Shown here: positions 4,109 to 19,426 of the stretch, piece by piece
Numbering within the stretch: the first letter of the stretch is position 1
Layout of the letters: every line of letters begins with the position of its first letter
Origin: Caulobacterales bacterium
GTDB lineage: Bacteria > Pseudomonadota > Alphaproteobacteria > Caulobacterales > Caulobacteraceae
Assembly: GCA_947475655.1 (NCBI GenBank)
Contig: CANJOB010000009.1
Coordinates: forward strand, 1 to 34,442
Length of the DNA: 34,442 nt
Reading direction: 5' to 3'
The notes under the pieces: model-generated
Seen by the model: the letters and a program-made list of their open reading frames with translations, nothing else
Told to the model about the DNA's origin: nothing
Databases searched by the model: none
Position numbers and translations under genes: made by a program

Positions 4109-5125
4109 ATGGCTGACACACACCGCCACGACCATCCGGGCCACGGGCACGACCGCAAGCACGGTCACCAGCATGACCATGGGCACGACCACGGGCACGC
4201 CCATGGCCACACGCACGGCCATGGTCATCACGGGCATGACCACGGGCACAGCCACGCCCCCGCCAACTTCGGCGCGGCCTTCGCCATCGGCGCGGCGCTC
4301 AACATCGGCTTCGTCGTCGCCGAGGCCGCCGCCGGCATCCTGACCGGCTCCCTGGCCCTGATCGCCGACGCCGGCCACAACCTCGCCGACGTGCTGGGCC
4401 TGCTGCTGGCCTGGGCCGCCGTCATCCTGGCCAAGCGCGCCCCGACCGCGCGCCGCACATACGGCCTGCGCAAGGCCACCATCCTGGCTTCCCTCGCCAA
4501 CGCCGGCCTGCTGCTGGTCGGAGTCGGGGTCATGGCCTGGGAATCGCTGATCCGGCTGGAGAACCCGCAGCCCGTCGCCACCGGCTGGATGGCCGCCGTC
4601 GCCGCCGGCGGGGTGGTCATCAACACCATCACCGCCCTGATGTTCATGCGCGGGCGCAAAGACGACATGAACCTGCGCGGCGTCTATCTGCACATGGCCG
4701 CCGACGCCGCCATCAGCGCCGGGGTGGTGGTGGCCGCCCTGGCCATCTACCTGACCAACTGGCTGTGGCTCGACCCGGCCGTGACCCTGGCCGTGCTGGC
4801 GGTGATCGTCGCCGGGACCTGGGGGCTGCTGCGCGACAGCCTGGACCTGGCCCTGGACGCCGCCCCGCGCGGCATCAACCCGATCCAGGTGCGCGAAGCC
4901 CTGGTCGCCCTGCCCGGCGTCGCCTCCGTCCACCATGTCCACATCTGGGCCATGAGCACCACGGAGATCGCCCTGACCGCGCACCTGGTGGCGCCCGGCG
5001 CCGGCGGGGAGCTGTTGAAGCGGGCGGCGGCGACGCTGAAGGACCAGTTCGGCATCGGCCACGTCACCCTGCAGATCGAGGACGAGGCGGCCAATTGCGA
5101 CGGGCCGTGTCCGGACCTGGCGTGA
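4109..5125 (+). CDS. Cation diffusion facilitator, CzcD/ZitB-type Zn(II)/metal exporter with His-rich N terminus
   Basis: This 338-residue CDF transporter has six predicted transmembrane helices. The first 50 residues contain 22 histidines in HGHDHGH-type runs, a cytoplasmic metal-binding leader. The metal site is visible as LIADAGHNLADV in TM2 (His and Asp ligands) and HMAADAAISAGVV in TM5. The C-terminal cytoplasmic domain carries the usual VHHVHIWAM metal-binding motif, and a CDGPC pair lies at the tail. CDF proteins export Zn(II), Cd(II), Co(II) or similar ions by proton antiport. A good ribosome site (GGAGTGGGATGAAGG) lies before the ATG, 30 bases after the previous gene. Its stop overlaps the waaA start (GTGA). 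Its place inside a lipid A operon is unusual and may be a later insertion or a linked zinc-homeostasis function. Confidence 0.92.
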   Translation: MADTHRHDHPGHGHDRKHGHQHDHGHDHGHAHGHTHGHGHHGHDHGHSHAPANFGAAFAIGAALNIGFVVAEAAAGILTGSLALIADAGHNLADVLGLLLAWAAVILAKRAPTARRTYGLRKATILASLANAGLLLVGVGVMAWESLIRLENPQPVATGWMAAVAAGGVVINTITALMFMRGRKDDMNLRGVYLHMAADAAISAGVVVAALAIYLTNWLWLDPAVTLAVLAVIVAGTWGLLRDSLDLALDAAPRGINPIQVREALVALPGVASVHHVHIWAMSTTEIALTAHLVAPGAGGELLKRAAATLKDQFGIGHVTLQIEDEAANCDGPCPDLA

Positions 5126-16166: not shown

Positions 16167-17270
16167 ATGACCGACACCCTGCCGAAGACCGACCCCGGTC
16201 AAATCGCCGACCCGGACGTCTTCGCCCAGGCCATGCGCGCCTCCCGCCTGCCGATGATCATCGCCGACGCCCGCGCCCCGGACAGCCCCATCGTCTTCGC
16301 CAATGACGCCTTCCTCGACCTGACCGGCTACAGCCGCGAGGAGGTCATCGGCCGTGACTGCCGCTTCCTGCAGGGCCCGGCGACCGACCCCCTGGCGGTC
16401 CAGCGCCTGCATGAGGCGCTCGAGGGCCAGCACGACACGGTGATCGAGCTCCTCAACTACCGCAACGACGGCGCCACCTTCTGGAACACGATCTACCTCA
16501 GCCCGGTCCGCAGTGGCGACGGGCGGGTAGCCTATTTCTTCGGGGCCCAGGTCGACGTCACCGAGAAGAAGCACGCCGAACTAAGCTTGATGCAGTCTCA
16601 TCTCGATCTGGAATCGGCCGTGGCCTAGCGCACGGCCGAACTGCGCGACACCCTGGGCCAGAAGACCGCCCTGCTGCACGAAGTCGACCACCGGGTGAAG
16701 AACAACCTGCAGCTTATCGCTTCCCTGCTGCTGCTGCAGACCCGACGCGTGCGCGACCCGGCGGTGAAAAAGGCCCTGGGCGGGATGCTGGAGCGAGTCA
16801 ACGCCGTGGCCACGGTCCACCGCCGCCTGTTCCAGAGCGAGGACGTGGCGATGTTCGACCTCGCCGCCTTCGCGCACGATCTGGCCGACGACGCCCTGGG
16901 CGCCGCGGACCGCGGCGACGTCAAGATCAGCCTCGACGCGCAGGCCGTCCAGGTGCCCGCGGCCCTGGCCGCGCCCCTGGCCCTGGTGATCAACGAACTG
17001 CTGCTCGACGCCATCGCCCACGGCTTTCCGCCCGGCCGCGGCGGCCTGATCAAACTGGGGGTCACACATAGCCGGCGCGGCGTACGGATCGAAGTGACCG
17101 ACAACGGCGTTGGTATGGCTGTAGAGCCCTCTTCCGGCCCGGAATCGGTCGGTCTGGGGCTCACCATCGTCGACCTGCTGGCGCAACAGCTGCGGGCCGA
17201 GGTGACCAGAAGTGACGCGGGTCCCGGCGTGAGTACTGTGCTGGAGCTGCCCGTCGACGGCGTGAGTTAG
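16167..17270 (+). pseudogene. lovK: LovK-type blue-light sensor histidine kinase, interrupted by an in-frame amber codon
   Basis: One continuous frame of 368 codons contains a single TAG at codon 154 (16626-16628). Codons 1-153 encode a LOV domain with the flavin-adduct motif GRDCRFLQG (photoactive Cys), preceded by IVFANDAFLDLTGYS and ending in FFGAQVDVTEKK. After the stop, in the same frame, comes RTAELRDTLGQKTALLHEV, then DHRVKNNLQ (H box of the HisKA_2/HWE type), a NELLLDAIAHGF N box and DNGVGM / GLGLTIVDLL ATPase motifs. The full length matches Caulobacter LovK (about 368 residues). The kinase half shows no other damage. No ATG, GTG or TTG lies between the stop and the phospho-accepting His (16689-16691), so simple restart cannot make a working kinase. 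Recent mutation, readthrough or a sequencing error are all possible. Confidence 0.9.
16626..16628 (+). other. In-frame amber codon within lovK
   Basis: TAG sits between GTG-GCC and CGC-ACG-GCC-GAA, where relatives have a sense codon in the helical linker (VAxRTAELR). A single base change from CAG or GAG would create it. The frame is intact on both sides. Confidence 0.95.
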
Positions 17271-17274
17271 GCGT

Positions 17275-17745
17275 TTGATTACGGACGAGCCCTTGGAAGT
17301 TCTGATCGTCGAAGATGAAATCCTGCTCGCCACCGAGCTCGGCTTCCTCGTGGAGGAGGCCGGTTGCCGGGATGTGGGGCACGCCATGAGTTCGGACGAG
17401 GCGCTGATCATGGCCTCCAAGCTGCGGCCCGACCTGGCCCTGGTCGACGTGCACCTGCGCGACGGCCCCACCGGCATCGACGTGGCCCGCAATATCGTCC
17501 AGCACTGCGGCGGGGTGGCCCTGTTCATGACCGCCAACGTCAAGCGCCTGCCGGAGGACTTCGCCGGCGCCCGCGGCGTGATCGGCAAGCCCTATTCCGA
17601 ATACGGGGTGAAGGCCGCCCTGGCCTACCTCGCCATCTGCCTGCGCGACGGCCGCGCCCCCGGCCTGCCCCCCGCCGGCTTCGAGCTCGCGCCTCACTTC
17701 GCCGAGCTGTGGAGCGTCTACGACGTGGTCCCCAAGGCCGGCTGA
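17275..17745 (+). CDS. lovR: LovR-type single-domain response regulator
   Basis: This 156-residue receiver-only protein has VLIVEDEILLATELGFL at the N terminus, phospho-acceptor Asp58 in LALVDVHLRDG, the switch Thr in LFMTAN and the conserved Lys in GVIGKPYSE. The C-terminal extension GFELAPHFAELW has no DNA-binding domain. In Caulobacter, LovR takes phosphate from LovK and feeds the general stress pathway. It starts four bases after the lovK stop at a TTG (17275), with no good ribosome site. A second TTG at 17293 is possible. Its TGA overlaps the next ATG by one base (TGATG), so the transporter that follows is likely translationally coupled. Confidence 0.88.
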   Translation: MITDEPLEVLIVEDEILLATELGFLVEEAGCRDVGHAMSSDEALIMASKLRPDLALVDVHLRDGPTGIDVARNIVQHCGGVALFMTANVKRLPEDFAGARGVIGKPYSEYGVKAALAYLAICLRDGRAPGLPPAGFELAPHFAELWSVYDVVPKAG

Positions 17746-18369: not shown

Positions 18370-18830
18370 CGCCCTTCTGGCGTAACCTGCTGATCACCAT
18401 TGTCGTCGCCGCCGCCTCGGGTTTCGCCGGAGCGAGGCTGGGCGCGATCCGCAACCAGTCCCACGCCAGCCCGCCGTCCGCCCAGGCCACCCTGCGCCAG
18501 AGCGTCGACGCCATGCTGACCCGGGACTTCAACCTCACGGCCGATCAGAAGCGCAAGGTCGCCGAAATCGACGAAGCCTATACGCGCCAGAACAACCGAA
18601 TCTGGTCGATGCTGAAGATGACCAACGCCGAGCTGGCGGGCGCGCTGTCCGAAGACATGACCATGAACGACATGACTCATGTCTACATCCGGCAGATCGA
18701 AGAGAACGCCGGCCTGCTGCAGACGGCGACGATCAACTACATCATCGACATCCGCAACGTTCTCACCCCGCAACAGCGCGACCTCTACGATGAGCGGATT
18801 ATCCGGGCGCTGATGCAAGACGCGCCCTGA
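18366..18830 (+). CDS. CnrX/Spy-CpxP-type periplasmic sensor (LTxxQ family)
   Basis: This 154-residue protein has an N-terminal membrane helix (about 7-26), then a helical periplasmic domain with the two LTxxQ signatures of the CpxP/Spy/CnrX superfamily: LTADQKRK at 57-64 and LTPQQRD at 133-139. In CnrX this fold binds Ni or Co and releases the CnrY anti-sigma. The His ligands typical of CnrX are not obvious here. Only His33 and His105 are present and there is no Cys. A Met cluster, MTMNDMTH at 98-105, could favour a soft metal such as Cu(I) or Ag(I), or no metal at all. It sits between the anti-sigma and sigma genes, with overlaps on both sides. Confidence 0.75.
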   Translation: MTPFWRNLLITIVVAAASGFAGARLGAIRNQSHASPPSAQATLRQSVDAMLTRDFNLTADQKRKVAEIDEAYTRQNNRIWSMLKMTNAELAGALSEDMTMNDMTHVYIRQIEENAGLLQTATINYIIDIRNVLTPQQRDLYDERIIRALMQDAP

Positions 18831-19426
18831 TGAGCGAGGACGGGGCGCTCGTCGAGCGGGCGCTGAGCGGGGACAAGGATGCCTATGGCCTGCTGATCGG
18901 GCGCCACAAGGCCTGGCTCTACCGCTTCATCCGCCGCCACGCCGCCAACGCCGAGGATGCCAACGACATTCTGCAGGAGACTTTCGCCTCGGCCTGGCGG
19001 GCCCTGTCCCGCTACGATCCGGAGCGGCTGTTCGAGATCTGGCTGCGGCGCATCGCCCTCAACAAGTGCCGGGACCTCGGCCGCAAACATGCGGTGCGCC
19101 GCACCGTGTTCATGATCACCCACCCCTTCGTCGACGCGGAGGAGCGGGCCCCAAGCCTCTCCCCCGCCGCCGACACGATGATGATCGCCGACGAGTCGCT
19201 GCGGCGGCTGCAGAAGGCCATCGCCGGTCTGCCCGCGAATCTGCGCGAGCCGCTGGTCCTGACCGCCCTCGAAGGTCTCAGCCAGAAGGAGGCGGCGGCG
19301 GTGCTGGGCATCAACATCAAGGCGGTGGAGAACCGTGTCGCCCGCGCCCGCGCCAAGCTGGCGGCCGCCCTCGACGTCAGCCAGGTGCAGGACATAAGCG
19401 ACGTGCGGCGCCAGAGTGACGGCTAG
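18830..19426 (+). CDS. ECF sigma factor, CnrH-like
   Basis: This 198-residue sigma-70 family protein has region 2 (YRFIRRHAANAEDANDILQETFASAWRAL, about 24-52) and region 4 (LPANLREPLVLTALEGLSQKEAAAVLGINIKAVENRVARARAKL, about 137-180). Region 3 is absent, as in ECF factors. It would direct RNA polymerase to a specific stress promoter when the membrane anti-sigma just upstream lets go. It starts at the ATG overlapping the sensor's TGA (TGATG). The three-gene set has nearly the same sizes as CnrY-CnrX-CnrH. No efflux-pump genes follow; the next gene is convergent and abuts directly (TAG at 19424-19426, opposing stop at 19427). Confidence 0.92.
   Translation: MSEDGALVERALSGDKDAYGLLIGRHKAWLYRFIRRHAANAEDANDILQETFASAWRALSRYDPERLFEIWLRRIALNKCRDLGRKHAVRRTVFMITHPFVDAEERAPSLSPAADTMMIADESLRRLQKAIAGLPANLREPLVLTALEGLSQKEAAAVLGINIKAVENRVARARAKLAAALDVSQVQDISDVRRQSDG

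Follow-up and report, generated by a model that had tools for sequence, protein, structure and literature searches.

The lovK gene in the window (the whole 34,442-nt stretch of DNA analysed) is split by a single in-frame amber codon between its LOV and kinase halves, probably through an ordinary recent nonsense mutation in a Caulobacter-like bacterium that would leave a LOV-only product without kinase output. This reading is supported by the verified stop, the intact remainder of the frame, uninterrupted relatives, a probable lesion in the N-box, an intact lovR and nonsense codons in other genes of the same draft genome.

An amber codon between the LOV and kinase halves of lovK

The source is a draft genome of 2,875,128 bases (2.88 Mb) in 239 contigs, 83.1% complete and 2.18% contaminated, whose named near relatives in another collection are Caulobacter, Phenylobacterium and other Caulobacteraceae. 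It yielded one strong LOV match, namely the interrupted lovK. The features discussed here are as follows.

16167..16625, + strand: LOV half of lovK, 153 codons, intact up to the stop (frame, Pfam)
16626..16628, + strand: amber codon (TAG), in frame, within the helical linker joining LOV to DHp (frame, alignment column)
16629..17270, + strand: kinase half of lovK, with HisKA_2/HWE DHp plus HATPase; not translated if the TAG acts as a terminator (frame, Pfam)
16689..16691, + strand: phospho-acceptor His, codon 175 (motif DHRVKNN; His in 46/46 genus loci)
17007..17009, + strand: N-box codon 281, Asp vs. Asn in 46/46 genus loci (alignment)
17275..17745, + strand: lovR, single-domain response regulator, intact, with a TTG start 4 nt past the end of lovK (receiver-domain match)

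lovK (16167–17270) opens with ATG at 16167 and runs through 153 open codons to TAG at 16626–16628 (codon 154), beyond which 213 further codons are open up to a terminal TAG at 17268–17270. The single amber codon reported in the preliminary description is thus real at the level of the assembled sequence, and the continuous LOV–linker–kinase frame expected of a LovK is broken at codon 154. The total of 368 codons was also correctly given there as the expected length: C. crescentus LovK has ~368 codons, and the stop-to-stop frames of relatives, mostly 370 aa or more, are in agreement with this. Over the 50 codons upstream of the TAG, the coding score was 11.1 (vs. –3.3 for the other five frames), and over the 50 codons downstream 21.4 (vs. 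0.6).

The first 153 aa gave PAS/LOV-type Pfam matches (PAS_9, 7.6e-23) and retain the photoactive Cys in the motif GRDCRFLQG, while the 213 aa past the stop matched HisKA_2 (2.2e-22), HATPase_c (1.2e-9) and HWE_HK (2.1e-6). HisKA_2 and the phospho-acceptor motif DHRVKNN are present only beyond the stop, and the alignment column places the TAG in the linker, as first described. Codon 64 of the window gene (16356–16358) encodes Asp directly before the photoactive Cys (GRDCRFLQ), a position held by Asn in 88/90 and Ser in 2/90 homologs and by Asn in all 35 genus LOV-kinases; the substitution may alter the photocycle.

If the TAG base is real, as we infer, translation would stop at codon 154 and yield a 153-aa protein, predicted to comprise just the LOV core and a short helical end, lacking any effector domain. 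The preliminary description had placed the phospho-acceptor His at codon 175 with no usual start codon before it, and both points hold, the first start-type codon after the TAG being a GTG at 16695 (codon 177), already past the His. Translation restart before the phospho-His was rejected, since no ATG, GTG or TTG lies between the two. Both the kinase and the phosphotransfer functions of LovK would consequently be lost, and the LOV-only product would presumably be inert or merely titrate partners.

Uninterrupted relatives

The genus survey comprised 75 genomes including the source, i.e. 74 others. A kinase ortholog (called at E ≤ 1e-45) was found in 56 of these 74 (57/75 with the source), and none of the matches listed has an internal stop. 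Loci were read for 46 of the 56, namely 35 LOV-kinases and 11 kinase-only forms. The final alignment was made from 126 loci, of which 90 distinct LOV-kinase homologs without a stop were kept and 34 without both halves, one duplicate and one with a stop were left out. At the column of the stop, 84 of the 90 rows carry an amino acid (Glu 35, Ala 21, Asp 12, Arg 10, His 2, Lys 2, Thr 1, Gln 1) and six a gap; given this variety of residues, the TAG sits at a variable position of the linker.

A search for truncated, short-LOV orthologs at E ≤ 1e-20 found none among the 74 other genus genomes, and the shortest LOV-bearing frame among the matches listed (217 aa) belongs to a distant LOV with 40% identity. 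The only other interrupted case met is a LOV-kinase in a Jannaschia draft genome (locus L087), whose in-frame TAG (4157–4159) lies inside NCRFLQ, a different site from that in lovK. No published lovK or LOV-kinase interrupted by a nonsense codon turned up among the papers listed in our literature search; the Brucella passages on pseudogenes found there deal with other genes. Among lovK matches longer than 800 bases, none exceeded 74% DNA identity in the 74 other genus genomes, and a plasmid search gave only partial matches (99 records), with coverage below 80% in each.

Conservation on both sides of the stop

Median identity of the window lovK to the 35 genus LOV-kinases is 59% for the LOV half and 60% for the kinase half. 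Of the residues invariant in these 35 proteins, the window gene keeps 31/37 in LOV, 4/5 in the linker, 41/42 in DHp and 19/20 in CA. At a 90% threshold it keeps 55/70 in LOV (the lowest of 36 sequences), 52/60 in DHp and 44/62 in CA (each the second lowest of 36). Divergence is thus spread over the whole gene, not special to the part past the stop, and the near-equal divergence of the two halves means that the stop is either young or not real. Relaxed selection after the stop, for which the N-box change had first been read as decay, was rejected, as divergence in the kinase half as a whole does not exceed that in the LOV half. The retained invariant residues and the equal identity across halves argue against long neutral decay after the stop, which supports the recent event proposed in the preliminary description.

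In the ATPase domain, the N-box Asn expected of a LovK is replaced by Asp at codon 281. Across the 90-row set this position holds Asn in 83, His in 3, Asp in 2, Ala in 1 and a gap in 1; because the two rows with Asp are distant homologs with open frames (L064 and L095), the substitution is only suggestive of a second kinase lesion. EnvZ N347D has been described as kinase-minus and phosphatase-plus, and in our reading of the motif lovK codon 281 would correspond to EnvZ N347.

Stop-codon usage and other nonsense codons in the draft genome

Stop usage and interruptions were scanned in 833,917 bases (29% of the genome) holding 612 coding segments. TAG was the commonest stop (254 segments, next to 250 with TGA and 108 with TAA), so its suppression would lengthen a large share of proteins. 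Release factor RF1 is found in two pieces, each on its own contig (409 and 77 bits); taken singly, neither passes the 423-bit cut-off. Anticodon CUA occurs in none of the 31 tRNA genes found in this 83% complete genome, a set from which Trp, Tyr, Asp and Ile tRNAs are also missing, and a search with one suppressor-like tRNA pattern gave 0 matches. We rejected amber reassignment or suppression in view of how stops are used, the presence of RF1, the tRNAs found and the TGA and TAA interruptions described below.

The scan returned 43 stops flanked by coding signal both upstream and downstream, including that in lovK. Eight further stops were looked at (seven translated, plus one more), and two were confirmed with relatives. 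ligD carries a single in-frame TGA (C6:7016 of the source genome; L163:7016), and a transglycosylase-like (SLT) gene, present in 17/18 other genus genomes searched, a single in-frame TAA (C28:3929; L186:3929); in each case five relatives have a sense codon. With lovK, there is one case of each stop codon. Of the other stops inspected, two resembled gene junctions, a further two were followed by an ATG, and no relative was found for the stop at L161:9434, which has coding signal on both sides. L170:749 is another such stop. The remaining stops of the scan each have a nearby in-frame ATG, and the count of three interruptions per 612 segments, drawn from the stops inspected individually, is a lower bound; such a frequency is unremarkable for true pseudogenes. 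Isolated nonsense codons in drafts of this kind, among them TGA in ligD, TAA in the transglycosylase-like gene and TAG in the Jannaschia LOV-kinase, are hence special neither to lovK nor to amber; the data fit true pseudogenes and consensus errors alike.

LOV-less LovK in the genus and the adjacent lovR

By position in the match lists, LOV lies directly upstream in the same frame in 41 of the 56 genus relatives, and not so in 15. The latter appear to represent LOV-less LovK, the figures being counts of states. All 11 kinase-only loci read have an ATG and a short leader, which often resembles the LovK N-terminus fused to the linker, with lovR retained downstream (e.g. L007, L009, L015, L245, L254, L256).

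lovR was found downstream in 45 of the 46 genus loci read, and not in one. Its spacing from lovK, 4 nt in the window, ranges from –3 to 22 nt in those 45 loci, and this closeness suggests, without proving, that early termination in lovK would lower lovR expression. A gene for an ECF-type sigma factor lies 1.1 kb downstream of lovR (window 18830–19426).

Competing explanations

The main rival to a recent nonsense mutation is an error of consensus or assembly, or a mixture of strains, with lovK uninterrupted in most or all living cells. We regard this as rather unlikely, though deserving serious weight: the draft is fragmented, incomplete and slightly contaminated, the base may therefore be wrong, the lovK frame is otherwise intact, and the sample contains two more interruptions of single-base type, one of them in the transglycosylase-like gene that nearly all genus genomes searched possess. 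The N-box change, however, would then need a separate explanation, and three cases in 612 segments would be no surprise for true pseudogenes. The intact lovR counts against a recent mutation, as does the low CA conservation (44/62), yet the LOV half ranks lower still and divergence is not confined to the part past the stop. Readthrough or suppression of the TAG, which would supply some full-length LovK, had been raised in the preliminary description and now has a very slim chance. The kinase frame is intact and the base directly after the TAG is C, a weak termination context, but TAG ends more of the sampled segments than either other stop, RF1 is present, the suppressor tRNA(CUA) to be looked for was not among the 31 tRNAs found in this incomplete genome, other interruptions use TGA and TAA, the relatives show no conserved interruption, and the N-box Asp also counts against it. 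Nor does the intact downstream frame favour readthrough, as had been argued, since any recent nonsense change leaves the same picture. Least probable of all is translation of the kinase half alone from an unusual start, to work like the kinase-only LovK that commonly stands beside lovR in the genus with its own ATG and leader; the stretch from the stop to the phospho-His offers no usual start, and the N-box Asp again argues against it.

A functional short LOV, i.e. a 153-aa LOV dimer signalling through other kinases, is improbable. Short LOV proteins make up 13% of bacterial LOV proteins according to PMC4416707 and can act as true receptors according to PMC4335406, and the photoactive Cys is retained in the window. 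C. crescentus LovK, which together with LovR affects hfiA and adhesion, is described as active on adhesion in its non-phosphorylatable form LovK(H180A) (PMC6530869), for which reason a protein deprived of its kinase part would not, by analogy, necessarily lose all activity. Against this stand the LOV half, which ranks last of 36 in keeping residues conserved across the genus, the undecayed kinase half, the lack of any truncated ortholog among the 74 other genus genomes and the opposite direction of change in the genus, where 15/56 orthologs lack LOV and keep the kinase. As to the short-LOV photoreceptor first proposed, a LOV-only product would arise by default, but its LOV half is no better conserved than the kinase half; nothing in the data shows selection for a short LOV, and a functional one is possible but unsupported. 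It is more improbable still that LovK first became kinase-dead through the N-box Asp, like EnvZ N347D, remaining active unphosphorylated, and that the TAG then freed a LOV domain titrating other kinases; were this so, the window gene would mirror the LOV-less forms of LovK elsewhere in the genus.

Comparison with known systems

A recent nonsense mutation, if real, would be a natural instance in which a photoreceptor kinase has been switched off, bearing on the dispensability of light input to LovK–LovR. In the genus, LOV and kinase appear to separate repeatedly, with LOV missing and kinase and lovR retained (15/56 genomes), and the window would show the rarer reverse. The locus resembles C. 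crescentus LovK–LovR, as described in PMC6530869, in domain order, HWE/HisKA_2 kinase family and the position of lovR directly downstream, but differs from it by the TAG in the linker and by two Asn-to-Asp replacements, one in the N-box and one directly before the photoactive Cys. Its predicted product, an effector-free LOV core ending in a short helix, is like the bacterial short LOV proteins DsLOV, RsLOV and Methylocystis sLOV; unlike these, it would arise through a stop in a kinase gene that is intact elsewhere, in a form that no relative shares and with a putative function. With the ordinary single-nonsense pseudogenes of prokaryotes it shares one stop, an intact remainder, uninterrupted orthologs and other cases in the same draft. 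In nothing tested does the window lovK depart from these except in its second catalytic change, and it most likely represents this ordinary kind of loss, or else an error in the draft, whereas a novel system of readthrough or of split genes is improbable.
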